NCBI RefSeq assembly: GCF_032854445.1
Contig: NC_088295.1
Location: 20,137,385 to 20,201,384 of the forward strand
Direction of reading: 5' to 3'
DNA length: 64,000 nucleotides
From: Liolophura sinensis
Lineage: Eukaryota > Mollusca > Polyplacophora > Chitonida > Chitonidae
In this document: positions 17,201 to 52,200 of the stretch, in pieces
How the letters are laid out: every line of letters starts with the position of its first letter
How positions within the stretch are numbered: position 1 is the first letter of the stretch
Notes under the pieces: generated by a model
Seen by the model: only the letters and a program-made list of their open reading frames with translations
Told to the model about the DNA's origin: nothing
Database searches by the model: none
Translations under genes and position numbers: made by a program

Positions 17201-20200
17201 ACCTCTGCAGAGGGAACAAGGACCAGACAGGACAGAAGCAGGGCAAGGCAAGAGGTCAAGGTCAAGGGCACAACAGATGGCTGCAGATGGCGCTCTGTGA
17301 TAGATGGTTTACCTACAAACACAGAACAATGATGAACAAAACGAGTAACAATTAAAGTCTGTGAATGATGTGACGAAAACACATGGATAATCTCTTACTC
17401 ATATCAGACTGACAGGTGTTACCTGGAAGTAATCTGGTTGTCTGTTGTTACATTGGAAGTGTAAATGTGACTGACTGTACTGAGTATTTCACATGAAATA
17501 CATGATCTGTATAAGAGCAACAATGACAACACAAAAATGACGCAAAATATTCATAAATAACTGTCATCAGAAGCTTACCTGCACCTCTGCTGTTAAGTTC
17601 TAAAACAATAACACAATACTGCATGAAAATTCAGAGGAACACTCGTATAGCCTGATCGAATCAGAGAGAAGCGACTGCCACTATCGAACATTAGGCCTGG
17701 AGTTTTATTTGGACACTGAATTGAGAGTCTTCCAACATGTCTTATGCATGTCTAACATTTTATTGTGAATGAAATATAAGAAGAGTTTCATGGGGTTATT
17801 TTTGATAAAGGTATGTGTTGTTGACGATTGATTACAACAACAACAATCAAATTTCAGTGACCGATTGTCACTGAATTCTGGTACAAAAATATACTCAAAG
17901 TTGTTTTAGAACTCATAGTTTATGAAACAGGCATATAATGCTGGAGTTTCTATGGTCTTGCCTTAATTAAAAGTATTTAGATACTTTTTTCCGACCGAAA
18001 TGATTCACGTTACTTCGCTGTGGTTTGTAAAGTCCGCGATGATGTTCAGCATTTTGGATTGTAGGATATAGAATCCAGGATTTTAATAATTACAAAAACG
18101 GTTCATGTGTTATATTGCTATCATTAGAAAGAGTAGATTTCATACTATCTGTGTTCTTTAAATTAATATTTAATATAGCACTAGTTGATAGAAATTACTG
18201 GTTTTTTCTTTATGATTGCATGGGGAAAAATTACGCCATTTTAGCCATATTGGTTTCGCCATCATAGTAAATCATAGACAGGGCATAGTAAGAGGCGAAT
18301 GCTGTGCGATGCACGTCGGCCAATCAAAATGTAAGATTTTTGGCGGTTAGCACTGCCTACTTTGTCTACACACTATAAAAGGGCATCGATCATGGCATCT
18401 GACAGATGGTCCTGGAGGTCTACAACAGTCAAGACAAGGGCAAAAGCAAAGGCAAGATCACGGGCAAAAGCAAAGGTAAGATCGTGGCAGGGCACAGAGG
18501 ATTAGTTAGAAGAATACCACAGATGAAGATTTAAGGATTCTGAAGAATACAAACACAAGACAGCTAAATGGTTTCAAGACATAATCTATACATTGATGAA
18601 CCTCAGACAGGGAGACAGCACAGAGATTTACCAGGGATCGCCAATGTTCCCAAGAGGAGCCGATCTTAATTGACAGCGGGCAGAGCTTGTGTATTTGAAT
18701 CCGCGGGAGATTTGCTATCTTCAGTATATCATGCAGGAAGGATTTAGTGTTATACTGGAGGAGCTGTGACTATATGAGTTAAAGAGTTACTTCTCTTACA
18801 TTAAAATATATGGAATACGTTTAGGTAGAAATTCCAGCACATATGCCTGCTGTAATAATTTTAAGTTGCTAAAGACTGTTCACTGTCTACAGCCGTGTCA
18901 ACAAGCTCCGCCAGAGTTATTCCCCCTGAAACTCTCCCTTGCAAATGGTATTGCTGACTCTGATAGAATATTTGATGATTTGACTGTATATATGTGAATA
19001 AATGCATTTCACCGTTTAGTGTTCGAACTGAAAAACAAATCTTAGGATCTTCTATTATGCTCTTCTTGCCGATTTACTGAAATAAGTTGTGAGACTTGAG
19101 TTTTCCTCCGAGAGTTATCCCGGAACAATTTGGTGTATTAAATAGAATAACACCATTGAATTAATGACTGGAGTATTGAGAGTAAATCCATATTTCTGTA
19201 GTGGTGTCTCCAAACACTTGAGGTAAATGTTGGTCTCATATGGTACTAAAATATAAAACCTTTTACCTCGGAGTCTATAGAGATTAACTGGTGATAAACA
19301 GAGAGTGGAGCAAAGTCTGTATTCTTAGTCTCTACAGGTCATAAGACTGGGTTTTAAAGAAGAATGGGCTACAATATTGATACCCCCAACACTACTTCTG
19401 ATAATCATACAGCATGTTCACTAGACCAAAACATCCTGCATCATTTCACTGTACATAGTGTAATGTCCCTTCAATCAAGTTTATGCTCTCTATGTACTCA
19501 CCGTTGTTTCGTGTTCTCTCCAGGTCAAATATGAAGCCACCAAAAAGGGAGGTAAACACACCACCCAGCTGGATGAACAAGCTGACATTTGTGTAGTGGC
19601 TCACTGCAAAATACAAGGCAAATAAATCATCAGTTCAAATCAATCAAATCGTAGAAGAAGACCTCAAGATCGTGTCTCTCATTTGTTCCATTTGTTTTCC
19701 ATAAGATGTTGGTTTATAAACAAGACAAAGGTACCAAGTAAATATCTGTCCACTTTTCAGACCAAGTAATCAAGCCCTGCCACTGACCAGCCGGCTTCAT
19801 TCCCATACCTAAGCTCTCCTCCTGATTTGTGATGTAGTTCAGCCAGGGGTTCAGTGTACCGATGAAGTAATAAAAGCGTAGCTGTAATACACTCAGCCAG
19901 AACACGTGAGAGAGGAAGACCCGAGATAGCGTACAGTTCAGAAGGCTTGGCTTCACATCTCTCAGCGGAAGCTCTTCTGCTTCAAGGGCTGAAAAAAGAA
20001 ATAAGAATCACATGGTGATGGTTCAGTACCAAATAAATGTGATGATATGTGTAGTTAACCAAAGCTTCGGACTTAACATTGTGCTTAACAATTTTTTCAG
20101 ACATGTGCAGACAAACAAGTTTTTAGACTGCATGTATGTGTAATGTGCCTCCTTGTTGCAGGGTCGATTTTCATCGCTCTTTTATCTAGTGCTGCGTCAC

Positions 20201-23200
20201 TGAGACAACTTACTGAAGGCAAGTAAGCCTTATGGCATATTTTACATGTATGTACTTACCTTCCGTTGAAATTTGCACTGTCAGTTGTAAAATATCTACT
20301 CAAAAAGTGCATGCGGATAAACTGACCAATGCTACCGATACACTGACAGAGGTAACTAGTCTCTAGCCAGCGGGGTGGAGAAGTGGTGGGGTAATACATA
20401 GGCTAGTGGAACAACTATCCCACCTTATTATAGGTGACGGTAAATAGGCGGAAGATCTACGATTCCGGACATCCTGAGACAGGTTCTAAGTGCCTTTTGA
20501 CAAATTAAGGTACACACAAACAATTATAGACAAATTTTATCTTGACAATTAATTTGTATACCAGATGGAGCTTATCTGAATAGACAGGGATCATCCACAA
20601 CTTACTGCAAGAAGGAATTCTGATCAAACATTATCATAAAAACCTGGGTAAACTCATTATTTTAATATTCTTTGAGATAGAAAACATGCAGATATGGCTT
20701 CATAAAACATTAGCTTAATAAGTATTATTGCCTTGCTGAAACTATGCCATAAAATATGACAAATACTGTGCTGAGGTATACTGGTGACTGGCGGATAAGA
20801 GGCCTTTCACAGGAATATACATCTTTTCACTTTTGGTTTGAATGCTGAGTTACATTGTTCGATTTTGCAAATTACAAAACTACAGATACATATCTTTTTC
20901 GTTACCCAGAAAAAAAAAAAAACATTTCCTACCAACCTACTCGTTTTTTCCACTGGGCATGGGTTGCTGGCAGACTTTCCCACGTATGACCGGAGGGGAA
21001 GTCAGCATGAGGTGAACATAAACTCGAAGCAATCACAATGGTGAGAGGTTTCTGGGTCATAATGCAAACCACTATGCCATAGAGGCAACAAAAAAATGCT
21101 CTTTGAATGCTTTTTCTTATACGCCCTATTCCCCAAATGTCAGAAAATGTTATTTCAATATTACATTAGTATAGTGTGGTAAGATTCCCCTTCAATGTCA
21201 CTAACTACTATTTGATGTAGATGTCTCGGGTATGACATATACTAATTCTTCTCAGTTTTTGTACAGGTATTAGTAGTGTTGAAAGTAGAATGTTACATTT
21301 CTTTACCAGCCTTTTGGAAAAGTACAGATACAAGTAAGTTGTTCATTAGGTGGTTGACCGATTTGAGAAAAAACAAACTCAATATTCCTGCTACAATTTC
21401 ATATATACTGGCTAAAACGAGCAGACTGGGTGACCACAAATTAGAAGAAATAGAGTAAGCACCTCATTTAGTGTACATGTTGTCCCTTGTACACGCAAGC
21501 TAAACTGTGCAAAGATAGACAGTGAAAATTTCTGAGCTGATTTCCTTACAGAAATATAGGAAGTTTTCCAAAAATATAGGAAGGTCTGAAAAATATAGGA
21601 AATACACCCTGAGGCCTGTAATAATATAGTAATGTTCTTTGATTACCTAGTGTACCGTTTCCATTAAGGGCTCTGACTGCCTCCTCTGCCTCATCAAGGT
21701 CACTATTGTCAGGCTCCACTTTGGGGATGAAGGTTTTAGGAAGCAGTACAAATGTACTGAAGATGACCATGACGTGCAAGGCAGAGATGAACAAGTAGGA
21801 ATACTGTCGGGAAATGCCATTTTCGTAGGCAATCTGAAGCAGACAACATGAAACAATCAATCAGAAACTCTATGCCAAACCATGAAAACATCAATGTGAA
21901 ATGGACATCACACTATTAATCTGAGCCAGGTAAGACCAAACCGCTGACCTGGCACAGGTAATTTTCTAGTGTCTTAGAAATTCCGAAAAACATATGCACA
22001 TGTAAAAAACATTGGATGCACACAGCTATTATAAATGTGGATTAAAACCATTGGTGTCCAGATTTAGCTACTGGCCCTAAAAATTATAACCTGTTTAAAA
22101 GAGTATGTTACCAGGGATGGCTTCTGAGAAACATAATACTGACTTTAAATCCACAAATAGATAGATTTACTGCCCTAGTCATCTCCAGCCAGCCGCCGGT
22201 ACTGCTCTGCGGGTGACGTCATAGATGGCCAACCCAAGCCTAGCTGGCCCAGATTACGATCAACATGATGTCATTTTTGAGAAGGATTCTAGCTACTCAG
22301 AATCAAATATACTGCCTTATAAATTTGAACCCGCAGTGGACAATATTGAGATTTCGATTGATGACACTGTACATTTCCTGTGTTTATTTTAAGATTTTAC
22401 ATCTATTTACCATACTTTCCCTCTGTCTGCTTCACAATAAATATCATCCTATTACCCGAGGGATTCAAAATTCATAAGTGTACACAATGGTAAATATAGG
22501 CACATGGTATTGTTGGCATTCCAAACAAGAGTCACATACAAAATAAATACATGTAGGACATGGATGTCGGCGTTACAGTGTATAGAGATTTCCTATCTAT
22601 CAGTTTTCAGTTCAGTTAATAGCTTTTTATAAGTACTGTGCCATTGTGGAAATTCACCTGTATTCCCATTGCAGCTTTCAGCGGTAAAATGGCGAGAGCA
22701 GATATGGTTGTTTTTGGTGGGTACAAAACCTTTCCTTTTTGTGCTGTAAAACCACAGCTTTCTTTGGGCCTAACTAACTCTAGGGTCTTTATAAATGTAT
22801 GCAGAACAGCAAACCATTTCCTGGAGAAATTTGATATGCCTGCTGTCAGTCTTGTAGCTTTTTCAACACTGGACAAAATGGGGAAGCTCTGACAGCTTGT
22901 GAAGGTTGGACTTTTATGACGTAATTCAGCTGAGATTACCTAGTGTTGGCGACAAAAAATGCATAAAACCAGCCTCATTATCTAGTGATTTTAAGTGCAA
23001 CCTTACTCAGATTAATGTACCCTTTTCCAATATTTTTTTTACACTCAATTTAACAATATAAGAATGGGTAGCTACTTGTAGTAATGAATAAATAATGAAT
23101 AAATCATGAATCTGGACACTAATCCTTTAACTATCTGAAAAAAAAGTAACGTAAAATTGAAACAACGACAGCCAATAAATTGCCTCTTCTCACAATTCTC

Positions 23201-26200
23201 ACCTGGTTATTGGCCTGATCTTACCTTGACCACCAACTGGACAGCAGCTGAAGCATCAAATGACCCTGACAGCAATCCCACCACTGTGGATCCTCCCACA
23301 GCAAACAGGTTAGCCACCTGCAAGGAGGAAGAGATAAGCTGTAACTTGTCAGTAACACTGAACACTGTTAATTCTACCTGTATTACACTACCCTAAAAAC
23401 TGGTCAATATCAAATTTTTAAATTAACATCACACCATTTCTTCTACAGGGATTTGAATATTTACAGGTATCCTATCTTTGTGGAAGTGTTAAGTTTATTT
23501 ATTTTTTGGATTGGTGTTTCACTTATTTGACAGTGGACTTCAATATGGTGGGCGGAAACCCTGTAGAGCCCAGGAGAAACCCATGGGCATCCGCAAGTTG
23601 CTGGCAGATCTTCCCCTGTAAGGCCTTTGAGGAAGCCAGCATGAGCTGGACTTAAATTCACAACAACAGCATTGGTGACCGGCTCCTGAGTCATTGCTCT
23701 GCACTTGTATGCTTATCCCCTCGACCCAAACTGTTAAGTCGTAGATGTTAAAATAATAAGAGTGTATTCCTAAATATCGTGGTGGAAACCATCTAATGCC
23801 TTTTTATGAAAGATTGGTAAAATCTTCATGCACACATTTTGTTCTATTGGTGTTTATCATTTGCAAGAACATTGTTGCTGCTTGATTGAAGCTGAATTTT
23901 TCACATCCACAACTCCCTGCATTAGCCATAGACAATTTCTGAAAGGCTGCAACAATCATATGTGACAAGTTTCTCACCTGTATATTGGTGACGAGGACAG
24001 GCAGGCCACCGATAGCCAGACAAGACAAGCCTATGTACATCAGCCAGGGGGTGGAGGTGTTAAGGAAGGCAGTCACCAGACTCCCACACAAGAAGAAACA
24101 CCTGCAGAGAGACACACACAAAGCTGTAACAATTTGGGTGGTTTCACAAGCATGACTAGGCAGTATAAGTTGGGAAATTGGAGTGTCACATCAGTAAACG
24201 GTTCAACAACAGCAGATTAGTCTTGAAAAATAGCAACCTGTCAGTTGAAGAAGTTAATGTGCTGTGCAATACATTTACAATGGTTCAGTGGTAGACAATG
24301 GATTTAGCACAACAAGTGTACATATGTATGCAAGTCCACAACATTGAAATCCAACAACTTCTTTCTCATGGTCAGGTGCATGTGTACAATGTTGGAAATA
24401 AGGGAATTCATGGTGCTGTCCCTTGGTGGTGTGACTTCGTTGCTTTATATTTCAAGACAGGTTGCTATTTTTCAAGACTAATCTGCACATAATCAGTACA
24501 TCGTAACATCAGTGGGTATACACAATACGATTATCCAATGGATCACTTTAATTTATTCAGCATTTTATCATGTTTGCAATGTGTTATTCCAGCATATCCT
24601 GAAAGCATTATTCTTTGTAGACACGTAAAATTACACTTTTCTGTGAAATTGACAAATCCAACCAAAATATTTTTTTCTCAAAAATCAACTTCAAAATATG
24701 CAAAAATTGCACTGAAAGTTGCTCTCTCATATGTGAAAAGGTTGAGGAATAAGGGTACTCTAGTGAACTAAATCTTTTAGGAAACATAAGTCAATGATTA
24801 CAGATATTAATTATTGTATATGTCCCTCCATGATAAAATGCACATATTAGCACTCAAAAGCTGTAAAAAATAAAATACACACCCTCTAGGGTAAATATGC
24901 AAATGAGTTCATAAAAAAAAAAAAAAAACAACAATTTAAACCTAGTTTAACTTGAACTGATTTCAGTAGTGGAAATGCCTGAAAACCAATGATGAATTGA
25001 GACCTAAAATGAACATAAAGTTGGCCACTTTATATACATAGAAAAATATGTAATGAATTCTATAAAGTTTTGAAAGCCAAGAAGATAAGTTCAGAATTGG
25101 GGTTCAGAATTCTGAGTAGCCATGTTATAGAAGCCCTTATGAACTTGGCCAATCACTAGCACTGAAAATGTCATGTGATAATTGGTTGTCATGACAAAAA
25201 ACCTATTAGCTTTCAATTGTCAGTGTGGTTTCTTACAGCCGATAGGCAGAAATCGATGCAATAAATTAGATTTTGCAGTTAGTTTAAGTGTTAAACTGAT
25301 GCATTTTGGACCACACATTTATGAGCAGGGAACTGAGAATGACTGCCCGTGTCACAATGTGTACATGTTGGGCAGGATGCTGCAGTAACTTGTCAGGGGG
25401 AGCTAGCAAGAAAAACGCCTCAAGATAGCCAATGTTTGAAGGAAAATATTGTGACTTTGCATTATTTTTCCTTAGCAAAGTCAGATTTATTACTAAAATG
25501 TCTTCCCAAAATCTGCATGAAAGAGTTTGTTATCAATTAGAATGTCCTGCTATGTCCGTTAAATTGCCTGAAGTCTGTCCAGCCAGGTAGGCCAAAGGTA
25601 TATATTACACCCATGCAGGACAAGGGCAAGCAGGACTGCTAAAACAAGACGCTTGTGTTCACGAACATTGCCCTGACCCAGCGCCAAACTAAAAGAAACA
25701 TTGCCCCTAGGAACACAGGAGAGAGCAGAGGCGTTTTTGTTTCTATTTTCTCATTGCTTATACCGATGGTACAGCAGAGCTTCAGGGTTTTGTGACGTTA
25801 CTCTAGACAGCTATAACATGGCAAAATAACATCACCAAATGAGTGGCTATGTACTCATGATTGTTTGCTATTTTTTATTTTGTTGATAAGTGGTGTAGAA
25901 TTTTTTTTATATTTTTAGAACATTTCTGGAATACTACTTTATTAAATAATTCAAGTTTAGTGGCTGACTTTTTGTTCATTTTAAGCTTGATGTTATGTCC
26001 TATGATCACACATGTTTTAATCTGAAAGATGAATTAGGTCACATAGGAAATTTTAGCACGGACATTTTCTATAAACCCATGCAAACTTTTGGATGGCTTA
26101 ACATACATTAAAACGATTCTGGCCATTCGTGTCCCAAACGTGTACTGGATGTGACCCATAAGTGGTGAAGAGAAGGTCATCAAGGTCGTTCCCACGGTGA

Positions 26201-29200
26201 AGGCCAACTGTAACTTCTCGTCTTGCTCTGGACAGCTGATCACTCCAGACGTCATATTTTCTGCTGGTGTGGTGATGTTGGAGGAGTTGTCTCCCCTGTG
26301 AAAACAGAGCTCGGCGTAAATCCCCTCTTTCTTGAGAACAAATACCAGAGAGCCCCATCCGTACACCAGGCCTCCAAACAACATGCATTCCAACACTGCC
26401 CATACAGCCATCAAGTATTTCCTCCATGGTCTGAAAACCATACAATAGGTACATGTAGTTAAGAAATATATGTGGATCTCAAGGTGGTATAGCCTTTACA
26501 GGCCATCAAACATCAAAACGCTGAAAACCTAATATTGCTGCAGGGCTTATTCTGTATTGTTTCTTACATTAAGTTCAGTCCCTGCCCAACAATGTTCATA
26601 TCCAGTCTCTGTTGCTTTGACTACTGCTTTATTTAAAAGAAAAGACAAAAAATAAAATAAACTTAGTTATTTCAGAAAAGAGGTGGAAACAGACATAAAC
26701 GGTCATAGCCAGTTTGGTCTGACGTGCTTGGTTCACATGTAATTTTTATCAATCAACATTTATTCTGGAGTTCTTAAGAGGCCACGGCATGGCAACAGGA
26801 ACAGCTGCATTCTAAGGTAATAGAAGTAACTCAAACAGCTCATCTGTAGAAGACATAGGAATACAAAATTTCGGCTCAATACATAAAGTACTTATATAGT
26901 GAATCTGGTAATTTACCGTAATTAATATGTATACGGCGCATCAGCGATGGATCATCCTTCACATGTCATTGTAAATGTAAAACTTCTGGTCAATACATGC
27001 AGTGCTTTTTGAGAAACCACCCCTAACATTTTGTTTAACACTGATTTGAATACATTGATTACGCTAAGTCGTGAATTTGATTATTTATGGGATTCAATAT
27101 GCACACACCCAATCAACGAAGGAATATCCCCCTCATGCTATTGTGCACTACATGCGTGCCAATCCTGAGCTCAATAAAAGCAGAACTTCTTAAGATACTA
27201 CCCCCTAACATTTAGTTTAACACTGCTTTCCCTATTTTCTTTTTCACGCCAAGGTAAATAACCTGTGCTATGTGCTATACCCAGTCTGATATACAAAACA
27301 ACTGTTGCACATCTGCAGGGCTCAAAATGTTCGATATTTCAAGCTCTTCAGAGTGATGACAAAACAACTGCAATCATCCAATACGAGCTTAAGTTGTGAA
27401 ATATGTATTAGATTCCATGTATAGATATCCTAAACCAACATGAATAAAATAACATGGATAAAATAGAACAAGCACTCATTTAAGCATCATTTCCATGTTA
27501 CAAAGTCATCTTTGTGATTTGAGGTTATTTTGTTTTGATCTTTAGAAACAAGTGAATGTCCAAACATTTTGACCCCTGATCTGTGGAATATATCTACTGG
27601 ACTGATAACATACTGTGAATCATTCCAATATACAGTAAATGATTCCTGTATATTGAGAATCATTCCAATATATTGTGAATCATTCCAATATATCCTGTGA
27701 ATCATTTGTTATACCGTCAATCATTCCAATACATTGTAAATCATCCTTTTATACCGTGAATCATTCAATATGCTGGGAAACATTCCAATATACAGGGAAT
27801 CATTCCAATATGCTGGGAATCGTTCCAATATACTGGGAAACATTCCAATATACTGGGAATCATTCCAATATGCTAGGAATCATCCCAATATACAGGGAAT
27901 CATTCCAATATGCTGGGAATCATTCCAATATGCTAGGAATCATTCCAATATACTGGGAAACATTCCAATATACTGGGAAACATTCCAATATACTGGGAAT
28001 CATTCCAATATGCTAGGAATCATTCCAATATACTGGGAAACATTCCAATATACTGGGAAACATTCCAATATGCTGGGAATCATTCCAATATACTGGGAAT
28101 CATTCCAATATACTGGGAAACATTCCAATATACTGGGAATCATTCCAATATATCCTGTGAATCATTTGTTATACCGTCAATCATTCCAATACATTGTAAA
28201 TCATTCTTTTATACCGTGAATCATTCAATATGCTGGTAAACATTCCAATATACTGGGAATCATTCCAATATACTGGGAATCATTCCAATATATCCTGTGA
28301 ATCATTTGTTATACCGTCAATCACTCCAATACATTGTAAATCATCCTTTTATACCGTGAATCATTCAATATGCTGGGAAACATTCCAATATCCTGGGAAT
28401 CATTCCAATATACTGGGAATCATTCCAATATATCCTGTGAATCATTTGTTATACCGTCAATCATTCCAATACATTGTAAATCATTCTTTTATACCGTGAA
28501 TCATTCAATATGCTGGGAAACTTTCCAATATACTGGGAATCATTCCAATATACTGGGAATCATTCCAATATATCCTGTGAATCATTTGTTATACCGTCAA
28601 TCACTCCAATACATTGTAAATCATTCTTTTATACCGTGAATCATTCAATATGCTGGGAAACATTCCAATATGCTGGGAATCATTCCAATATACTGGGAAT
28701 CATTCCAATATGCTAGGAATCATTCCAATATACTGGGAATCATTCCAATATATCCTGTGAATCATTTTTTATACCGTCAATCATTCCAATATATTGTAAA
28801 TCATTCAATATGTTGGGAAACATTCCAATATGCTGGGAATCATTCCAATATGCTGGGAATCATTCCAATGTGCTAGGAATCATTCCAATATACTGGGAAT
28901 CATTCCAATATGCTAGGAATCATTCCAATATACTGGGAATCATTCCAATATATCCTGTGAATCATTTTTTATACTGTCAATCATTCCAATACATTGTAAA
29001 TCATTCAATATGTTGGGAAACATTCCAATATACTGGGAATCATTCCAATATACTGGGAATCATTCCAATATACTGGGAAACATTCCAATATGCTGGGAAT
29101 TATTCCAATATGCTAGGAATCATTCCAATATACTGGGAATCATTCCAATATGCTGGGAATCATTCCAATATGCTGGAAATCATTCCAATATACTGGGAGT

Positions 29201-30155
29201 CATTCCAATATGCTGGGAATCATTCCAATATACTGGGAAACATTCCAATATACTGGGAATCATTCCAATATGCTAGGAATCATTCCAATATACTGGGAAT
29301 CATTCCAATATATCCTGTGAATCATTTGTTATACCGTAAATCATTCCAATACACGGTAAATCATTCTTTTATACCGTGAATCATTCAATATGCTGGGAAA
29401 CATTTCAATATACTGGGAATCATTCCAATATACTGGGGATCATTCCAATATGCTGGGAATCATTCCAATATGCTGGGAAACATTCCAATATACTGGGAAT
29501 CATTCCAATATACTGGGAAATATTCCAATATGCTGGGAATCATTCCAATATACTGGGAAACATTCCTATATACTGGGAATCATTGCAATATACTGGAAAT
29601 CATTCCAATATGCTGTAAAGCCCCTATTGTACCTAAATTACTGGTTTACTCCTCTACATGGTTTCATAGATCTTATTCTGGTATGACTGAAAGTTGTCTG
29701 CACAGTGACTAATTGAGTGTGGCCAAAAGACAAACCTTCAGCCTTTCAACAGGAGTCAGCATAGGTATGGTACATATGTGAGGTAGAATGGGTACAACAG
29801 GTGTCAGGACAGGTACTTTGAGGCAGAATGGGTCCAATATGTTTAGGAAGCCAGCATAAGCCATACTTGAACCCAAAGCAACTGCAGTGCCGAGAGCCTC
29901 CAGGAGGTAGAACGGGTATAATATGAGTTGGGGTGGTTCAATATGAGTCAGGTGGGTGCAATGAGTCGAGATGGGAACAATACAACTCAGAATGTGTACA
30001 ATGTGAGTCAGGATGTATACATGCAATTCTCACCTTTTTCGGGCCTCTGTGGCAATGTTTACTTTCATCGGCACATTATCCTCAGGCTGTTTATCAATCA
30101 ACTGTGCATTAGTTACCTCCCCTGAAGGCACCCCACTGTATTTTGTTTCCGACAT
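14104..30155 (-). CDS. SLC43-family transporter, SLC43A3-like, copy A; ten coding exons, 531 codons
   Basis: Joining 30034-30155, 26107-26430, 23978-24101, 23225-23317, 21647-21833, 19809-19988, 19502-19603, 17123-17312, 15122-15242 and 14104-14256 gives an uninterrupted 1596-nt frame with GT-AG junctions and matching phases. The product is a major facilitator superfamily protein with about 12 hydrophobic segments. Family marks include LECMLFGGLVYGWGSLVFVL in the first membrane segment, QDEKLQLAFT, FDASAAVQLVVK, FIGTLNPWL and FPADYFGFLYG. They fit SLC43A3 (human about 491 residues) better than SLC43A1/A2, because LEC, FVxK and GTLN are A3-type. Human SLC43A3 is a plasma-membrane purine nucleobase transporter and SLC43A1/A2 carry large neutral amino acids, so the substrate here is inference. 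NSSNIT in the first outer loop is a likely glycosylation site. A 40-residue cytosolic N-terminal tail is added by a separate exon. A paralogous copy B lies upstream. Confidence 0.87.
14469..14740 (-). mobile_element. Full-length SINE-A in copy A intron 9
   Basis: Tail at left, tRNA head at right ending CTGAGCCACGCAGGCCCCC. Flanked by TGTCCAGGTTTA (from 14457) and TGTCCAGATTTA (from 14741), a 12-bp target duplication with one difference. Confidence 0.9.
14847..14925 (+). mobile_element. SINE-A tail fragment
   Basis: CATAATGCCAGCTGATGTCA, then AGTATTCTTGAGTACAGTGT and AAATAAATAAATAGA. Opposite orientation to the neighbouring full-length copy. Confidence 0.75.
15122..15242 (-). CDS. SLC43-like copy A, coding exon 9
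   Basis: 121 nt encoding residues 442-481 (FPADYFGFLYGVMIVISGVV... QYPLFIWLESPPKGPQK). FPADYFGxLYG matches the human FPSEHFGKLFG motif. Acceptor TGTTTTCAG, donor GTGAGG. Confidence 0.92.
16120..16490. repeat. Dimeric dispersed repeat, copy 1
   Basis: Two units of about 185 bp, each with GAATCTGGTAATTTACGGTG-like sequence, then a CATGTA-rich segment, TCAGTAAATGCA-like sequence and ACCCTTAACATTTTGTT. A second dimer with the same order is at 26880-27250. In intron 8 of copy A. Confidence 0.75.
16728..16890 (+). mobile_element. 5'-truncated SINE-A copy
   Basis: Body from GGTCTGGCAACAAGCTGCGG through CACCATAATGCTGAACGCTG to ACACCAATCAATTAAATAAA. No tRNA head. Confidence 0.85.
17123..17312 (-). 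CDS. SLC43-like copy A, coding exon 8
   Basis: 190 nt encoding residues 379-440 plus two bases. Starts KPSITERHLQPSVVPLTLT and ends FRSFMYGTAAAYIQM. The donor was placed at GT|GTAAGT, because this restores M-V-F-P across the junction in both copies. RSFxYGxxAA is a family motif. Confidence 0.9.
18320..18505 (+). other. Promoter-like block with a 37-codon basic open frame in copy A intron 7
   Basis: CCAAT at 18320, TTTTTGGCGG at about 18336, TATAAAAGGG at 18374, then an ATG at 18392 opening 37 codons (MASDRWSWRSTTVKTRAKAK, then ARSRAKAK and VRSWQGTED) with the stop at 18503-18505. A GTAAGATC donor-like site interrupts the frame after ARSRAKAK. The predicted start site, about 28 nt after TATA, falls past the ATG, so the frame may not be translated. 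No family recognised. It may be part of a retroelement long terminal repeat; AATAAA occurs at about 18998. Confidence 0.3.
19502..19603 (-). CDS. SLC43-like copy A, coding exon 7
   Basis: 102 nt encoding residues 345-377 (SHYTNVSLFIQLGGVFTSLF GGFIFDLERTRNN as two pieces). Acceptor TTTTGCAG, donor GTGAGT. FDLERTR corresponds to the 'MDRLKQK' type loop of the human protein. Confidence 0.9.
19809..19988 (-). CDS. SLC43-like copy A, coding exon 6
   Basis: 180 nt encoding residues 285-343: end of the central loop (EAEELPLRDVKPSLLNCTLS), then WLSVLQLRFYYFIGTLNPWL. Acceptor TTTTTTCAG, donor GTATGG. A 176-nt stretch from 19799 (inside the intron) to 19974 is identical to copy B. Confidence 0.92.
20940..21085 (-). 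mobile_element. SINE-A head/body fragment without tail
   Basis: GGTTGCTGGCAGACTTTCCC, ACGTATGACCGGAGGGGAAG, and GGTGAGAGGTTTCTGGGTCA in SINE-A order. The tRNA head is decayed and the A/T tail is absent. Confidence 0.75.
21647..21833 (-). CDS. SLC43-like copy A, coding exon 5
   Basis: 187 nt encoding residues 222-283 (IAYENGISRQYSYLFISALH... then the acidic central loop DNSDLDEAEEAVRALNGNGT). Acceptor TGCTTCAG, donor GTAATC. 92 nt (21706-21797) are identical to copy B. Confidence 0.9.
23225..23317 (-). CDS. SLC43-like copy A, coding exon 4
   Basis: 93 nt, phase 0 on both sides, residues 191-221 (VANLFAVGGSTVVGLLSGSF then DASAAVQLVVK). FDASAAV is the family FDxSxAV motif. Acceptor CCTTGCAG, donor GTAAGA. 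Confidence 0.9.
23493..23730 (-). mobile_element. SINE-A copy with internal deletion
   Basis: TTTATTTATTTTTTGGATTG followed directly by GTGTTTCACTTATTTGACAG, so about 25 bp around TACGCCGTACTCAAGAA are missing. The rest runs to a decayed head at about 23730. In intron 3 of copy A. Confidence 0.82.
23978..24101 (-). CDS. SLC43-like copy A, coding exon 3
   Basis: 124 nt encoding residues 150-190 (CFFLCGSLVTAF... GLPVLVTNIQ), two membrane segments. Acceptor CTCTGCAG, donor GTGAGA. The GG-x(4-5)-TN-x-Q ending parallels the human A3 'GGILFLITNLQ' region. Confidence 0.88.
24212..24486. mobile_element. MITE-like element with perfect 31-bp terminal inverted repeats
   Basis: GCAGATTAGTCTTGAAAAAT plus AGCAACCTGTC at 24212-24242 is the exact reverse complement of 24456-24486. 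The 275-bp unit has no coding capacity. Flanking target duplication is not obvious. It lies in intron 2 of copy A. Confidence 0.8.
26107..26430 (-). CDS. SLC43-like copy A, coding exon 2
   Basis: 324 nt encoding residues 42-148 (PWRKYLMAVWAVLEC... RMARIVLM). Contains the first membrane segment, the outer loop with NSSNIT and the second membrane segment. Acceptor TGGTTTTCAG, donor GTATGT. An in-frame ATG lies inside the acceptor (26439-26441), giving a possible alternative start. Confidence 0.88.
26880..27250. repeat. Dimeric dispersed repeat, copy 2
   Basis: Two tandem units of about 185 bp matching the dimer at 16120-16490: AATCTGGTAATTTACCGTAA, ACCCCTAACATTTTGTTTAA, AATCAACGAAGGAATATCCC, and CCTGAGCTCAATAAAAGCAG. 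In intron 1 of copy A. Confidence 0.75.
27600..29612. repeat. 2-kb array of a 20-bp repeat with a 140-bp higher-order unit
   Basis: Basic unit CATTCCAATATACTGGGAAT, about 100 copies, with variants ACTGGGAAA, GCTGGGAAT and GCTAGGAAT. Between about 28145 and 28640, and again more loosely on both sides, a 140-bp unit containing TATCCTGTGAATCATTTGTT and ATACCGTCAATCATTCCAAT recurs. The array fills much of intron 1 of copy A. Stop-poor frames up to 189 codons are produced in all phases; they are not genes. Confidence 0.95.
29735..30020. repeat. Degenerate short-period repeat with an embedded SINE-A fragment
   Basis: Loosely repeated words such as GGTACAACAGGTGTCAGG, GGTATAATATGAGT and AATGTGAGTCAGGATG, period about 20-30 bp. 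Between 29847 and 29901, AGGAAGCCAGCATAAGCCAT and ACTTGAACCCAAAGCAACTG match the SINE-A body in minus orientation. Confidence 0.55.
30034..30155 (-). CDS. SLC43-like copy A, coding exon 1 (N-terminal tail)
   Basis: ATG at 30153-30155 opens 40 codons beginning MSETKYSGVPSGE and ending ATEARK, then AG|A splits R41. Donor is GTGAGAATTGC. The exon continues into 5' untranslated sequence to about 30194, where TTTTTATTGCAG looks like an acceptor, so at least one non-coding exon lies further upstream. The matching exon of copy B (56977-57098) has the same length, phase and donor sequence, which is the main reason for accepting this as the true start. The tail is hydrophilic and acidic/basic mixed, as expected for the cytosolic end of a major facilitator. 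Confidence 0.82.
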
Positions 30156-41520: not shown

Positions 41521-41527
41521 CCATCAG

Positions 41528-41911: not shown

Positions 41912-42125
41912 CCTTTTGTGAAGGCGAAAGTACAAAAGTGCGAAGCAAAAGGACAAAATGGCGAGGCGAAAGTACAAAACGGCCAGGCGAAAGTACAGAA
42001 GTTCGAAACAAAGCAACGACGTTTTGTCACCTCGCTATTTTGCATTTTCGCATCGCCCTTTCGTACCTTTCTGTCGTCCATTCGTTGTTTTGTTTCGCTT
42101 TCTCATTGTTTCGTCCTTTCGCAGT
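41912..42125. repeat. Short-period repeat folded as a purine/pyrimidine inverted structure
   Basis: Left half (41912-42010) repeats GGCGAAAGTACAAAA-like 20-bp units; right half (42020-42125) repeats the complementary theme TTTCGTACCTTTCTG / TTTCGCTTTCTC. The two halves can pair imperfectly into a long hairpin. Confidence 0.65.
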
Positions 42126-42239
42126 TGTTTTCTGGTCTAAATAATCAAGAGAAAGGACGGAAGGCACGCTTGGCCACTACTGGCTTCTATACCGTAGACA
42201 TGAAATATGAGAAAAATTTGTCAATAACAGTGTGTTAAA

Positions 42240-43235
42240 GCTATGTGTGGAAACAAGTTTCGTGTTAATACGCAAAGCTGTGTGGGAGACTACAGGCGGA
42301 AGGATGGACGCACGGGACACATGCATTTTAACATACTTTTAAGGCATGAAATGTTCCCACAGACCATTGTTGTTTACCAGTTGATCTGCATAAATCACGT
42401 TTTTAAGAACTATTAATTATCAGTGTGGTGGAGATGAAACAAAAACCATATATGACCCGGATTCAGTGGAATTTAAATTTTCTTCATATTGAGGAGGTGA
42501 TCAGAAATGTGCCTTTGAAAATAATTAAGAAGCTAATTTATGTCAGTACACACACTGTGTTTCTACGTACAATCGGGAAAACTGTAAAAAGTTTTACTGG
42601 AATAAGACTTCAATATTCTTGACAAACGTGCACAATTTGACAATATTTAATAGCAAAGAAAATACAACGTATATACTTCCTGATCCCCACACATAGACTT
42701 GACGGTTCTTTTATACCGTAAAATCGAAGTGGCTAAATTTGAAGATCAAAATCATATCTTCATCAGAGTATAATATTATATACCGGACATTGACAATAAA
42801 TGCAGGAAATAGTATATTCATAGGACAGAATAAATCACTTTGTCCAGGTGTCTAGGTATGATCTATATTGAAAATATAAACGCAAAGACGCCCATTTGGC
42901 CTTGACAACAGCAAACGCGTATCGATGTACACCGCTATTACGGATAATAGAAATCATTTAACATACATGAGGAAAATAAGTTGTCAGTAACATATAGTCT
43001 GATAGTACTAAAGTGAACCAAAACGTATGTGGAAGATGGACTGCAGCAAATTTGGATTATTATATTCCTGACATGTTATTCCTTGTCGAGAAATCCACCA
43101 TGCCAACAATATTAATAGCAGAAATTTATGAAGATAACTGCACTAGCCATGTAGAAAATAGATGACAGCAACCACAGCTGTTCTCTCATTGTCATACCAC
43201 TGTACCAGTTCAGATGCAATCTGTTGAAACCCTTA
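42240..43235. other. No gene recognised
   Basis: Intergenic AT-rich sequence. No supported feature. Confidence 0.4.
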
Positions 43236-43236
43236 A

Positions 43237-43424
43237 GTTTTATGGAAGGGGATATTCGCCAAAACTGTATGCGTGTAACTTTGAACGTTGCAAGTTCTAC
43301 ACTGCTATGTAAGTCTGCAGCTTCTGCCATGTGTCTACCGACATTCGGCTATGTGGTTACCGACATGTGGGTATGGTATGTAATCTGAATATTGTAAATT
43401 GTGATGCCGAAGGTTCTGTTTTTC
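43237..43424 (+). repeat. Left arm of a 2.2-kb inverted repeat
   Basis: About 188 bp, from TTTATGGAAGGGGATATTCG to GTGATGCCGAAGGTTCTGTT, nearly the reverse complement of 45237-45424 (roughly 90 percent by eye). A further related segment, CTGCTCTCATCTGTGGCGAT at 43518-43538, is also in the right-arm region. Confidence 0.85.
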
Positions 43425-44271
43425 GATGGTGTGCGTTTGTTTCCACCATTGCAGTTCTGGCTATGGATGAGACCCACGTGGCAGTACCGCTGTTAGCCAC
43501 ATACACGTCTTACAACACTGCTCTCATCTGTGGCGATGTGCCTTTGTGACAATTGCGTCATTGTGACGCCCCCTGGCGTTGTAATCAACTAGACGAAAAA
43601 ATAATAATCTCTCCTAGTCATGGAAGTACAGTCCACTTCAGAGCAAACTGTTCAGTAGTCATTGTTGTTGTTAAGATAATAAGACATCAGTCAAAGCTGA
43701 GTTATGCTAATTACACAAAAAATTACCGCGACTTTTTAGTAGTTTTGCCGAAGATTAAGATTTCATTGCAAGTGTTGTAACAAACTTTGAAAACACTTTT
43801 GAATTTGTAATGATATTATGAGGGTTGTTAATATTTCAGCAGTTGATTCAAATTCGTTGTTGTTTACATTTTGGTCGAAGTAGTCCGTAGTCCCCGCCAT
43901 CGTCTTGCATGGGCACACTCACAGTCAAAAGTTGCCCAGCATGGGTTTAGGGGGCCCCTAAATTTACACTGACTTTCAAAACGTAGCATTGTTTTTTTTT
44001 GTTTGTTTTTTTTTTTTGCATATCTGGCTTGCAACAATCCATATGTTTGCCCAGGGTCCTATGATAATATTGTGCTTAGAGATGTTAGAGTAAAGACATT
44101 CAGCCCTGGTGCCTAGGCAATTCTCCCGATATACACTTGAATAGGTCCCCTGTAACACTGAAACATTAGCATTAGCATTTTGTATGCTAGTGGATACTAA
44201 GCACGTTGTATTGGGTACTCACTTGAAATGTTACAAACAATACGTGTATCAGGTGGTATTCTTCACATTTG

Positions 44272-44632
44272 ACAGGCACAGATAGCACAGCTGGTAGAGC
44301 GTCCGCTTAGGGAGGTGGGGGGGGGGGGGGGTAGATAAGGGGTCAATGCTGGGTCGAGTCACACCTAAGATCTCAAAAGAGGAAGATGTAACTTCCTCCC
44401 TTGGCGTTCAGCGTGAAGGGGATGGCGCAACGACTGGATGACCCATGGGTGGTGCAGCTTACTTGCTTTCGGTAAGGCGTCTCAGTGAAACAGGACTAGA
44501 TAAAAAAAGAGCGGTGGAAATCTGTCCTGCAACAAGGAGGCACATTACATGCACTCTAAGGATTCCTTCGTCGTCAAATGACTGAAAAATTGTTAAGTAC
44601 ACCGTTAAATCCCAAGCACTCACTCACTCACT
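44272..44632 (+). mobile_element. SINE-B copy with a poly-G tract
   Basis: Head GATAGCACAGCTGGTAGAGC GTCCGC, body GCGTTCAGCGTGAAGGGGAT and AACAAGGAGGCACATTACAT, tail TGAAAAATTGTTAAGTACAC CGTTAAATCCC with ACTC repeats. Flanks CTTCACATTTG (44261-44271) and CTTCGCATTTG (44633-44643) are a target duplication with one mismatch. A run of about 16 G replaces part of the head at 44314-44330. Confidence 0.9.
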
Positions 44633-45119
44633 CTTCGCATTTGCTCACTGAGTAGGCCTATTACTTTCCCTTTCAAGGACGACAAGAACAAATGTGCACT
44701 TCTATATATATTGAACCCAACGTCAGACAGAAATGAAAGCAAGTTCTATGATTATACATGAACATGATTAAAAAAGCAACGGTGTATTTGAAGAGTTTGC
44801 TTGTAGACTTTATTTGAGTTTTATTTGAACTTCATGCGAGTAATATCATTAATACCAGTAAAGGTCTACGGCCCGTTCATGTGGCAAGGGTCATGGGGGT
44901 ACTAGCCAACAGCCAACACAAGAATACATACCAAAAATAGTCTCGGGGCAATAAAATTTTAAAACATAAAGTCTGATAAATTTACCTTTCACCAAAAGAA
45001 AATATTTCTTATGAAGTAAGAAACAAAAGAGCACACAACTACGTCCGAACATGGGAATTCAGCTGAAACGAAATGTCGTAATTTACCATTGACAGAAGCG
45101 CCCCCTGTTGTCATAACGG

Positions 45120-45166
45120 GCATCGCCACAGATGAGAGCAGCTCGAGCGCTCATCTGTGGTGATGC
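45120..45166. repeat. Near-perfect hairpin inside the right arm
   Basis: GCATCGCCACAGATGAGAGC and GCGCTCATCTGTGGTGATGC pair around the loop AGCTCGA, with two mismatched positions. Confidence 0.85.
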
Positions 45167-45236
45167 ACCGTTATGACACCATGGGTCGCTAATACCTCCC
45201 TTGAAATTTCAATGCGCTTACAAGCTTTCTCGTTGC

Positions 45237-45424
45237 AAAAACAGAACCTGCGGCATCACAATTTGCAATGTTCAGATTACATACCATACCCACATGTCGG
45301 TAACCACATAGCCGAATGTCGGTAGACACACTACAAAAGCTGCAGACTTACATAGCAGTGTAGAACTTACAACGTTCAAAGTTACACGCATACAGTTTTG
45401 GCGGATATTCCCTTCCATAAAGTT
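45237..45424 (-). repeat. Right arm of the 2.2-kb inverted repeat
   Basis: Reverse complement of the left arm at 43237-43424. Together they could be the termini of a fold-back element or two independent copies of one repeat in opposite orientation. Confidence 0.85.
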
Positions 45425-45697
45425 TTTGTATAATGTTTACCCAAAGGGGGTGACTGCAACGGCTAGTTTGTTTCATGCAAATAGCTGAAAATCATCCCAA
45501 ATCGCCCATATGTTGATGTGATACCACTATACCGGTCACAGGTCAAAGTGTATTGACCAGGGATATTGTACACGACAGGAAAACAAAGATGTTTGTGGCG
45601 GATATACTGTTGTAGACAAAATTAAAACTGTCCTATCACTGTCACTGTCTATATTTGAAGGCAATCAGTCACAGCGTTCTCATATTTCTGACCAAAC

Positions 45698-45718
45698 AAA
45701 GATGGCGGCGGCCATTTT
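45698..45718. promoter_or_regulatory. Palindromic YY1-like site
   Basis: AAAGATGGCGGCGGCCATTTT contains the YY1 consensus AANATGGCGGC on one strand and CCATTTT on the other. It is 0.4 kb downstream of the copy B stop. Function unproven. Confidence 0.3.
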
Positions 45719-46094
45719 GTTTTAAGTACATTTCTGAAAAAATTGAAGGCAATTGGCCACAACGGTCTGAGGTACTTGCAAGCAGTGGCATTCAAAATTA
45801 GCCTAAGAACAACAACTCCATCATTTACAATAACCCTGTCTTCCTATACAGTTGCTCGTCCCAGCTGATATGTCCGACGCGTGACCAAAAGTTGCAACGT
45901 ATATGCGTTTCGAAAATGAAATCCGCCATCCAGTACATGACGAAAAACAACATCTCCAAGAAGATTATGCGACGTCAACAAAGCCGCCCTTCCACACATT
46001 CTGTTGTGATACTTTCGAAAATCCGACGTCATCGGTTCGTATAGTTTCGTAAATTCTCTAAATAACATTCCTTGCATATTAAACACAATGTACC

Positions 46095-46232
46095 TCAAAA
46101 GCATTTGCTTCGTTTTGCAATGAACACATACTCTGATTCGGCAATATTGTTGGCACCACGTTTGGTGTTAAGCCAGATGTTTATCGGGTGGATCAGGGAG
46201 ACAAACATTAGTACCAGTAGGAAAATATTCAC
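46095..46232 (-). CDS. SLC43-like copy B, terminal coding exon 10
   Basis: 138 nt encoding residues 483-527 and TGA (46095-46097). VNIFLLVLMFVSLIHPINIW, then NTKRGANNIAESEYVFIAKR. Lacks five codons of the basic tail found in copy A. Acceptor GTTCACAG. Confidence 0.88.
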   Translation of the reverse strand: MNIFLLVLMFVSLIHPINIWLNTKRGANNIAESEYVFIAKRSKCF

Positions 46233-49200
46233 CTGTGAACACAATAAACAGAACATGGGGAAGAGTAAAAATTATAGTGCATTGAATTAGTTTTTCCTTC
46301 AATACATGCACCCGATAAACAAACTGTCATTCCATTTAACATGCTTTAGGTATTTACATAGTGAATACAAATGCCATGTCAAGCACCTCAGAGTTTTGTC
46401 TACATTAATACATAGAAAAGGGTTCCGTGTTCACAGGGGTAAACCATGTAAATTGTTTCTTCAGGTCTCTAGATTTAGATGCTTCACCCTTCACCCCCAA
46501 ATACACATACTGGCTGATTCTTTTCTGATCTGGGTGTCGTAAGCCAAAGAGGATAAGTCACTTATATTTCTTATTCCACCAAAACCCCGTTAGAACACAC
46601 TTATTTGCTACGAAGGTTAAAGAATTCAGCCCCTACTTTTGCGAAGCGTAGAACATATATTTGTGTACATCACCTTCTGAGGCCCTTTTGGGGGCGTCTC
46701 TAGCCAAATAAAGAGAGGGTACTGTACACATCCCAGAACTCCACTGATAACTATCAGCATACCATATAAAAACCCAAAGTAGTCTGCAGGAAATCTGACA
46801 ACAGCAAAAAGCAAAGACGTTTTGTGTAACAAATGACCTCCAATACAAGAGTGAACAGTAACAACTCAGGTTTTTTCACTTAAAGGCCATCTCAGAATAA
46901 CCAAAGGTGACACCCCACCGATTTAAAGTTACCAATCATGACACTCCATCATGAAATTCCACCATATGAAAATTACCAATTATGACACCCCACCATAATA
47001 AAGGTTGCAATCTTAACATCATTACATTCCACTACATTAAAGTTACGATAGTTACAGCCCACTATATCGAAGTTCACATCATGACATCCCATCATATCAA
47101 AATTACCATCACGAGGGGCCCACCATGTCAAACTTATCAATCACGACACTCCACCATGACAACCCACAGTATCGAAGTTACCATTTATGATACTCCATCA
47201 TGACATTCCACCATACCATAGCTAACGTCACGGCAACACACCATGCCAAAGTTTCAACCAGGACACCTATCTGCGGAGCGTACTGCATTCTTGCCTTTGC
47301 AACTTTGCTGGGCGGGCAAACTGGTAACGTATCACTCACATTTTGGAAGACAACAGTCGTCATTTCGCCTTGGAACCGAGTTGCCATTGCACTGGAAAAG
47401 GTAACCTATAGGTCTAGCCTATTTACATGTACTTACGCCGACTGATCTGCTATATATACATGTATACTTACACCATTTGTAGAAAAGCAGCTGCTGTCCC
47501 GTACATGAAGGACCTGAAGAAAGTGAGCACGATGAAGTCCACATACAGGACCTCTGCAGAGGGAACAAGGACCAGACAAGAAAGCAGCAGAGCAAGGCAA
47601 GAGGTCAAGGTCAAGGGCACAACCGATGGCTGCAGGCGGCGCTCTGTGATAGAAGGTTTACCTACAAACACAGGACGGTAGAGAATAATCCCTTTGTCAT
47701 CACGACTGAAAAGAAACAGCTTGGGCAGATGAGTGAAGGTGTACAAGTAACAAAGTTACCTGTACTTAAAAACACAGGAGAAGTGGGAATAAACTTTTAG
47801 CTGATGACACCATTTACAAATATCAGGACGGAATAGAAACAACATCAACGAATGAAACCATTCACATCAGGACTGCAGACACAACATCAACCGCTGAAAC
47901 CATTAACGTCACGACTCCAGACACAACATCAACCGATGAAACCATTAACGTCAGGAATGCAGAGACATCAACCAATGAAACCATTAACATCAGGATTGCA
48001 GACACAACATCCACCAATGAAACCATTAACGTCAGGAATGCAGACACAACATCAACCGACGAAACCATTAACATCAGGACTGCAGACACAACATCAACCA
48101 ATGAAACCATTAACGTCAGGAATGCAGAGGCATCAACCAATGAAACCATTAACATCAGGACTGCAGACACAACATCAACCGATGAAACCATTAACGTCAG
48201 GAATGCAGACACAAAATCAACCAGTGAAACCATTAACATCAGGAGTGCAAAGACATCATCAACGAATGATCCATTAACGTCAGGAATGCAGAGACATCAA
48301 CCAATGAAACCATTAACACCAGGACTGCAAACACAACACCAACCGATAAAACCATTAACATCAGGACTACATAAACAACTTTGACTGATGACTTAAGTCA
48401 AACGAAGACGATTCCAAACCACACAGCTATGGTATACGGCGAGTCTGTTGAGTTAAAACATTAAGAATACTGAGCTTCTGTTGCAGTGGCCAAAGTGGAG
48501 CTGGTATGGGTGGTCTCCTCTAGTTATTTAATTTCATGCTGATATTTTGTTTGTTTTAACTGATTAATATTAAATGTAAAACTCCTTCTTTGGTGAAAAC
48601 ACCAGTCGGGTATTGAACGTAGTGGGATGATCTATCTCCCCTCCAACCTACCTTAATGATTAAAACTATGACATCTCAGAGCTACAAGCTTTCTGCAACA
48701 TTTGACTGAAGCATTAATTTCACAGTTGTGCTTAAAGTTGTCATGCAGAACAAGTTTACTATCTGTCCATATATATATTGTGTATATACTCACTATTGTT
48801 TCGTCTTCTCTCCAGGTCATATATGAAGCCACAGAAAAGAGAGGTGAGAACACCTCCCAGTTGGGTAAACAAACTGGCATTTGTGTAGTGACTGACTGTA
48901 AAATAAGAAGGCGATTAATTTAGAATAAATTGGAAAAATTCACATGCTAAAATACAAAAACCCCAATCAAATGGTGGTGGTCACAAATGTACAAAGAGAA
49001 GCAGAACGACTGTCACAGTCAAGTATATAGGTGATGGTCCACGGGCCGCCTAGGCTGTTTGATGATGTTAGGAGACTAGCCTATGAATAATTTGCGAATC
49101 ATGGACAGAGCATCCGCAAAGTCGCAAAAGGGACTCCCAGTCCAGCATTATGATACAAGCTCCAGGTAATATTTATACTGGCCAAATACTGCACTGAGTT

Positions 49201-52200
49201 TTACTGGTCGACAATTTTGACACATACATGAAAGCGGCGGAAATCGTTTGACGCAGTGTGTCGAGGTCTTTAGTAGGAAGAGACGTGCATGGTTTTCACT
49301 CCGTTTGCATGATGAGTTACACAGCCTGATTGTGTAAATTACTGTTTTTCAGATACCGATTTTCAATAACGATCTCGGTCCGGTTTCACGAAACCTTTGT
49401 TTTGCTTAATCAAATGTATTTTGCTTACCAAGATGGTACTTTACTTATGCAATGTTTGGCAAGGTTTTTCGGGAAACGCTTCATGTAATTTACTGACCTT
49501 AAAAAGTTTCAAGATCTCTTTTCCCGTGTTTAAAATATCTGACCAGTAAACTGCCAGTGCGTTAATCTGATTGAGAATATTTAATAATATCCTTTAACAG
49601 CACTGAATTTTTACTATGTTGATTGTGGTTGGGATGAAAAGTGGGATCAGAACATATGGCCCCGCTATATTCCCATACCTAAGCTCTCCTCCTGATTTGT
49701 GATGTAGTTCAGCCAGGGGTTCAGTGTACCGATGAAGTAATAAAAGCGTAGCTGTAATACACTCAGCCAGAACACGTGAGAGAGGAAGACCCGAGATAGC
49801 GTACAGTTCAGAAGGCTTGGCTTCACATCTCTCAGCGGAAGCTCCTCCGAGTGTACGGCTGAAAATATAAAAATGGTGATATAAGTTAATATCTGAAGGT
49901 GATAGTTTTTTGATTTGATTTGATTGGTGTTTTACGCCGTACTCGAGAATATTTCACTTATACGACAGCGGCCAGCATTAGGGCGGGTGGAAACCGGGCA
50001 GAGCCCGGGGGAAACCAACGACCATCCGCACGTTGCTGACAGACCTGCCCACGTACGACCGGAGAGGAAGCCAGCATGAGCTGGATTTGAACTCACAGCG
50101 ACCGCATTGGTGAGAGACTCCTGGGTCATTACCCTGCGCTAGCGCGCTAACCAACTGAGCCACGGAGGCCCCTCTGAAGGTGATAGTCTGGTCAATTTTG
50201 AGCGAACAACAGAAGATATTTATTTATTTATTTATTTGATTGGTGTTTTACGCCGAACTCAAGAATATTTCACTTATACTTCGGCAGCCAGCATTATGGT
50301 AGGAGGAAACGGGGCAGAGCCCGGCGGAAACCCACGATCATCCGCAGGCCTTCCCTGCGGAAAAACCTTCCCACTTACGGCCGGAGAGCACCAGAAGATA
50401 GCATATATCATTGCAAAATATGTACATGTGATGTAAAAATAAAATATCATGAAATGTCGTCTTACTACCTGGGTTATCGTTTTCATTAAGGGCTTTGACT
50501 ACCTCCCCTGCCTCATCAAGGTCACTTTTGTCAGGCTCCACTTTGGGGATGAAGGTTTTAGGAAGCAGTACAAATGTACTGAAGATGACCATGACGTGCA
50601 AGGCAGAGATGAACAAGTACGAGTACTGTCGGGAAATGCCATTTTCGTAGGCAATCTGAAACAGACCACAACAAGGCATCAATCTGACAAGCAAGGAACC
50701 CCACACTATCAGCCTAAAGAAATAACAGCCAACTATCAATCTAAAATAGGCCACAACAAAGTATCAGTTTGAAATAGGCCACAGCAAAGTATCAGTCTAA
50801 CAAACAGGTAACCCCATACTATCAGCCCCATACAAATAACACCCAACCATCAATCTGAAATATGCTAAAACAAAGCATCAATCTGAAATAGGCCATAACA
50901 AAGCGTCAATCTGAAATAGGTCACAACAAAGTATCAATCTGACAAACAAGGAACCCAACACCATCAACCAGAACAAATAATTGCAAACCATCAATCTGAA
51001 ACAGACTATAACAAAGCCTCAGTCTGTAATAGGCCACAACAAAGTATCAATCTGACAAACAAGGAACCCCATACCATCAGTCTGAATAAATAACAAAACA
51101 TCCTCAATCTGAAACAGACCATGTATTTATTTCTTTGGCTGGAGTTTTACGCCGTGCTCCGCTGGTATAGGATTGTCTGCATGGACGCACAGATCCAGAG
51201 CATTTCACTCATACGACGGTGGCCCAGCATTGCGGTGGGAGGAAACAGGGCCCTAAGTTAATGTACATTTTAATGATTGTAGACGGTTATCATGTTGTTA
51301 ATGTCTAGTAACATACTCCCATTACTGTTCTCCAGACGCCGGGAAAATCATGCAGACTAATCTTAACTTGATATGTATATATATGTATATATCAGATATT
51401 TTTTCACTTTAGACATTAGGATCTTAGGAATAACTTTATTCCCAGGACGCCACTGGAGCTATTCGATTACCTGTAATCTAAACAAGCTGGTAAATTATTA
51501 AATGTGTAGTTAAGTTTTAAAATAATACATATTGTTTCAACAAGAAATACAATATATGATGCTGATGTTCAGTTGTTTCCAATAATCAAATAGTACTGGT
51601 AATTGACAGTAGCAAGCAACATGAGTTAGCCCCGCTTGGTTATTATGTAGGCTGTGTAATGAAATGACAAAGGGCTTAGGGTTACATGTAACAAATTACA
51701 CACGCTCTTCGAAATTAGGGCCTCATAAATGACACACAAATCATAAGCTTTTCGGTTTTGTCATGGAGCTATACGGTCTATAGTTCTATGTTTTATATAC
51801 CATGTGATATCATGACTTAATTGTATGCGGGTTTCTTATCTCAAGTGACCTAACTGAGAAATGTACACTTTCAGTTCATAGACTCTCATTGTAAATAATG
51901 CCGGGTCCAATACTATACAGTGCATACTATTGATATTAATAACTAGCTATTTAATAACGAGAAGCACAATCTGAAGCAATGCTTATAACCAGTACATATA
52001 CTGGAGAGCTGGTTAAACACGGGGAAGAAGCCTTACCTTGACAACCAACTGGACAGCGGCTGAGGCATCAAATGAGCCACACAGTAAGCCCACCACGGTG
52101 GACCCTCCCACAGCAAACAGGTTAGCCACCTGGGGGAGGAAAGAAGGGTAGAGTGAAAAACATGACAACCACTTGCTGAAAAAAAGTTAAGACAGAGGCG

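Follow-up and report, generated by a model that had tools for sequence, protein, structure and literature searches.

The window analysed here is the 64,000-nucleotide stretch C1:20137385-20201384 of a genome assembly of 609,464,459 bases in 632 contigs. It contains two genes for SLC43A3-like transporters, copies A and B, which we rebuilt from conserved splice sites, modelling the coding exons only (Table 1). All eight introns are present in both copies, and the coding exons agree in length between them, save exons 1 and 9. Both products match the Pfam family MFS_1. The nearest solved relative of copy A is ENBT1 (SLC43A3; 9l38, E 1.3e-73), matched over residues 14-470 of the query with 251.5 bits, versus 138.1 bits for LAT4 (9jbs); these two are the sole solved sequences matching at E 0.001. 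The pair therefore sides with ENBT1 rather than with the LAT members, and, judged by this resemblance, its products are putative nucleobase transporters. The genes lie in the same orientation with their coding regions about 19.7 kb apart, and constitute an old tandem duplicate pair.

Table 1. Gene models, coding exons and identical tracts in the window (positions within the window), together with the least diverged exons of three tandem SLC6 pairs located elsewhere in the genome.
Feature	Position	Strand	Description
Gene copy A, SLC43A3-like transporter	14104..26441	-	494 aa, nine coding exons; splice-site model, open frame
Gene copy B, SLC43A3-like transporter	46095..54050	-	490 aa, nine coding exons; splice-site model, open frame
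Coding exon 4 of A	21647..21833	-	187 nt, dS 0.063
Coding exon 4 of B	50469..50655	-	187 nt
Coding exon 5 of A	19809..19988	-	180 nt; first 14 bases outside tract
Coding exon 5 of B	49679..49858	-	180 nt
Coding exon 6 of A	19502..19603	-	102 nt; diverged comparison, dS 0.725 vs 48794-48895
Coding exon 6 of B	48794..48895	-	102 nt
Probable recent conversion tract, A side	19799..19974	-	176/176 identical to 49669-49844; dS 0, 38.7 silent sites
Probable recent conversion tract, B side	49669..49844	-	same 176/176 identity and zero silent change
Second tract in coding exon 4, A side	21706..21797	-	92 identical bases
Second tract in coding exon 4, B side	50528..50619	-	92 identical bases
SLC6 pair L001/L002, low exons			dS 0.20, 0.22, 0.38 (three exons) vs 0.61 to saturation
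SLC6 pair L003-L004/L005-L006, low exon			dS 0.28 (one exon) vs 0.81 to saturation
SLC6 pair L023/L024, low exons			dS 0.23, 0.26, 0.34 (three exons) vs 0.81 to 2.83

The window also contains repeats. A dispersed element of about 130-270 bp, 80-89% alike between copies, occurs at 3133-3390, 9359-9602, 14473-14742, 49906-50176 and 50218-50388. Gene B carries two of these copies in its intron 4, and gene A has one in its intron 8. The element resembles a SINE, and similar translated matches are found at other loci that we compared. A tandem array with a period of 172 (11 copies, 96%; a period of 345 bases is seen as well) occupies 4839-6733, and a 20-bp unit, repeated about 100 times, fills 27610-29615, upstream of gene A. 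Downstream of gene B, the segments 43239-43423 and 45237-45421 form an inverted repeat whose arms are 185 bp long, match at 94.6% and lie about 1.8 kb apart.

Over 1464 aligned coding bases, copies A and B show 140 differences, and these are unevenly distributed. As originally predicted, a block of 176 nucleotides is identical between the copies at every position. It runs from base 15 to base 180 of coding exon 5, which is exon 5 in our nine-coding-exon models and had been counted as exon 6 before, and extends into the first ten bases of intron 5, which read GTATGGGAAT on the minus strand in both copies. The two blocks lie 29.9 kb apart, and when the genome was searched at the DNA level, outside runs of N and very common words, no third copy was listed. 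The earlier description of the exon start needs correcting: the first 14 exon bases were thought to differ throughout, and 7 of the 14 do so. The longest identical coding runs of the pair measure 167 bases (exon 5 plus one base of exon 6), 92 bases (exon 4) and 41 bases. The 92-base run represents a second tract, left unmentioned in the original prediction, and is separate from that in exon 5, since the intron between them, intron 4, shows no relationship between A and B.

The original prediction had interpreted the exon 5 block as the product of a recent conversion rather than of protein constraint, and had proposed a comparison of silent divergence exon by exon. NG86 dS for exons 1-9 amounts to 0.244, 0.479, 0.448, 0.063, 0.074, 0.725, 0.252, 0.572 and 0.294, respectively. 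All silent changes in exon 5 fall within its first five codons; beyond these, none of 38.7 silent sites is changed, as against 0.24-0.73 in the seven exons other than 4 and 5, so that the silent-site test supports the proposed reading. In these seven exons 11.1% of bases differ, and at this background the probability of 167 identical coding bases is about 3e-9; judged against the same exons, an exon 5 tract devoid of silent change has a probability of about 2e-6. We further assessed the runs by shuffling the sequences of A and B. When codon pairs were shuffled, the 167-base run was reached in 0 of 20,000 trials; a longest run of at least 92 bases appeared in 269 of 20,000, and a second-longest run of that length in none of 20,000. 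With silent codons alone, the 53-codon run was reached in 42 of 20,000 shuffles and the second run in 5 of 20,000.

Silent change is also heterogeneous among exons, the observed value being reached by just 5 of 5000 codon shuffles. Without exons 4 and 5, 722 of 5000 shuffles reach it, which is not significant, indicating that the excess sits in those two exons. Exons 4 and 5, and no others, are demonstrably out of line. Given this figure, we do not claim older conversions in exons 1, 7 and 9, even though their dS of 0.24-0.29 is below that of exons 2, 3, 6 and 8. Between A and B, exon length correlates negatively with dS (Spearman -0.77, p 0.016), and a pooled contrast of long versus short exons without 4 and 5 gives p 0.018, both ideas having been formed post hoc; as a general cause, by which long exons convert and short ones escape, exon length was rejected, as the relation is absent in three SLC6 pairs (rho 0.08, 0.03 and -0.36).

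The introns of the two copies had been described as sharing nothing. They are indeed largely unrelated, but two remnants still align: intron 8 retains 63.6% identity over 129 columns at its 3' end, and intron 3 has a weaker match (69% over 104) close to its own 3' end. Where introns of A and B match most strongly, the matching segments are repeat copies in introns that do not correspond. Identity ends at or near the exon edges, as is expected where homology ends. The ten shared bases past the donor of exon 5, which had been taken as an argument for conversion, are present, but they make a weak argument, since another donor of the same pair shares nine: at exons 1-8, identity continues past the donor for 9, 2, 5, 3, 10, 7, 7 and 4 bases, and at 30 donors of the three SLC6 pairs for 2 to 9. 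Ten bases thus appear to lie at the top of the range, only slightly unusual and near what chance yields, and the seven other donors of the pair and the 30 SLC6 donors rule them out as proof of conversion. In a comparison of intron flanks over 34 exons with clear splice sites, the low-dS group being exons already called patches, we detected no significant leakage of similarity into introns beside low-dS exons (9 low-dS versus 24 other exons per side, four pairs; p 0.20 to 0.67). It is therefore the silent-site contrast, and not the shared intron bases, that carries the conversion reading.

To place these observations in a wider context, we compared 12 pairs of other genes in the same genome, 11 of them linked and one, which we call unlinked, with its members 16 Mb apart on one scaffold. 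The pairs were taken from exon lists before their own divergence had been seen, although some were chosen with the first results already in view; only rows of at least 15 codons were kept, or of at least 8 in the SLC6 dS comparison. Three pairs (slc6_C12, p450_C9 and p450_C12) were set aside as young, their introns being alignable. Heterogeneity equal to or above that observed was reached, out of 3000 shuffles, in 0 for slc6_C8 and slc6_C8b, 17 for slc6_C4, 19 for akr_C6a, 41 for the unlinked akr_C12, 222 for slc5_C8inv, 784 for akr_C6b, 1702 for p450_C1 and 1893 for slc5_C9. We do not count akr_C6a and the unlinked akr_C12 as evidence, as some of their rows, inspected by eye, are doubtful and include flanking and SINE-derived matches; their outcomes indicate that the heterogeneity test alone is not specific. 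In the strongly diverged pairs of this comparison, no single-exon patch was seen.

Three tandem SLC6 pairs with unalignable introns do contain single exons that are far less diverged than their neighbours (Table 1). The exon around L001:2886-3086 encodes the same protein in L001 and L002 (100% over 67 codons, at 97% DNA identity), and shares 38, 61 and 58% protein identity with genes three, four and five of the cluster, which shows that it is not a slow exon. Its counterpart is low in two of the three SLC6 pairs and saturated in the third, while the exon at L001:6497-6625, low in L001/L002, has counterparts in the two remaining pairs, matched by eye, whose dS is 2.01 and 1.90; the identity of the low exons thus varies from pair to pair. 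We extended the comparison to the 10 pairs of the five-gene cluster and the 3 pairs among L023, L024 and L025. L023/L025 is a young pair, and L024/L025 has dS of 0.42 and 0.24 in the same low exons as L023/L024, versus 0.82 and 1.38. Some single rows in the more diverged cluster pairs drop to dS 0.66-0.80 at 53-72% nucleotide identity, which tells us that dS is noisy near saturation. Taken together, three pairs of one family and the SLC43 pair, all of them tandem, support a recurrent process. One of these SLC6 genes has a peculiarity of its own: L003:4631-7298 (G000:C4) is a tandem array of 30.7 copies of an 87-bp unit with 94% matches, the unit running from the 3' end of coding exon L003:4550-4682 through its splice donor into the beginning of the intron, so that the array multiplies an exon-intron junction inside the gene and sets dozens of possible spare donors one after another.

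The identity in exons 5 and 4 is best explained by recent interlocus gene conversion confined to exons, to which we assign a probability of about 0.88 on the basis of two sequences from one species. What we find is a local excess of identity that includes silent sites and stands against a diverged paralog background, and this excess is not accounted for by slow sequence, as judged from exon 3, from the SLC6 cluster copies and, more weakly, from a distant paralog. Conversion could also have been templated by cDNA, the reverse-transcribed mRNA of one copy having repaired the other. While this would account for the exon-only effect, with low-dS stretches ending at exon edges here and in seven low-dS exons of the three SLC6 pairs, non-homologous introns alone would produce the same confinement, and both copies retain all their introns. 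In addition, the tract holds ten intron bases that are missing from spliced mRNA, though these may be shared by chance, and of the first 22 intron bases downstream of the SLC6 patch exon L023:1108-1240, 20 are shared with its partner. A cDNA template is accordingly improbable.

Alternatively, exon 5 might have been frozen in both copies by purifying selection, acting either on the protein or on overlapping signals within the exon, as could be suspected from the fact that all 55 codons following codon 5 are the same in A and B. However, exon 3 has a dS of 0.45 despite a single nonsynonymous difference over its 31 codons, so that a well-kept protein sequence alone fails to explain the unchanged silent sites of exon 5. 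The relatives listed elsewhere in the genome are all distant. The best match among them, at C1:10.80 Mb (L021-L022), shares 36-60% amino acid identity by exon, and its exon 5, at 46% amino acid and 55% nucleotide identity and a pS of 0.78, falls among the values of the remaining exons; this suggests that exon 5 is under no special constraint, although the gene is distant and the control correspondingly weak. Third-position GC of exon 5 (0.60 and 0.65) is likewise inside the range of other exons, and we consider a frozen exon very unlikely. That the assembly wrote the exon of one copy into the other is the least probable explanation: the Liolophura japonica assembly GCA_032854445.1 (hifiasm, purge_dups and YaHS; PMC11068029) was built at just 14x coverage, with purging of haplotypic duplications, but PacBio HiFi reads with a mean of 8,347 bp far exceed the 176-bp block, which makes such an artefact unlikely, the available part of that report mentions no short-read polishing, and the comparable SLC6 patches fall short of full identity, their substitutions being mainly silent (in the L001/L002 patch exon, 7 of 43 silent sites are changed and the protein is unchanged), as would be expected of real past events.

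For gene conversion, we envisage that the introns of the pair lost nearly all similarity and left the exons as isolated islands of homology. A recent break inside exon 5 of one copy would then have been repaired from the other, a step we infer from the identity itself, overwriting at least 166 exon bases; another event would have overwritten the middle of exon 4, and each conversion would have ended where homology ends. For yeast, a minimal efficient processing segment of about 200 bp has been suggested, according to the available text of PMC3924818. Exons 4 and 5 are at present 187 and 180 nt long. Outside these two exons the longest identical run is 41 bases, well short of the yeast figure, which would make the start of conversion hard to explain if exon 5 had already been as diverged as the remaining exons. 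It is therefore easier to imagine that conversion was repeated from an early stage, while one exon after another dropped out.

Conversion limited to exons, next to an intron that cannot be aligned, has been described for GOT1Sd/GOT1Sr of the copepod Tigriopus californicus, where, as far as the available text of that study goes, it was shown with several populations and GENECONV, unlike in the chiton pair, and where the coding regions are little diverged, whereas seven of the nine exons of the chiton pair have a dS of 0.24-0.73 (PMC3728101). The mammalian BMP8A/B, DDX19A/B and TUBG1/2 pairs resemble the chiton genes in being neighbouring paralogs that are homogenised in part and diverged in part; their converted fragments, however, taken from the accessible sections of a study that selected its gene pairs for intron similarity, span exons and introns, while the chiton tracts stop at exon edges (PMC2720389). 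Primate class I ADH paralogs likewise have conversion tracts inside tandem multi-exon genes, but in the portion of the report at hand their introns stay alignable and carry tracts, unlike those of the chiton pair (PMC3409193). Our search of open-licence papers listed none that appeared to treat gene conversion in chitons. The chiton case is an ordinary event of a kind already described, with a sharper contrast among exons than in GOT1Sd/GOT1Sr.

It is possible, if rather doubtful, that old tandem transporter genes of this chiton keep swapping single exons long after their introns and most of their exons have diverged past what minimal-homology rules allow, yielding patchwork proteins; repair would then have to tolerate islands of about 100-270 bp, perhaps imperfect ones, or use a cDNA template. 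In pairs like the one described here, introns act as firebreaks, making each exon its own unit of concerted evolution, and gene trees or divergence dates drawn from the whole coding sequence of such pairs would mislead. If the recurrence holds genome-wide, such exons would measure the limits of shortness and divergence within which an island of homology can still undergo conversion in an animal germ line.
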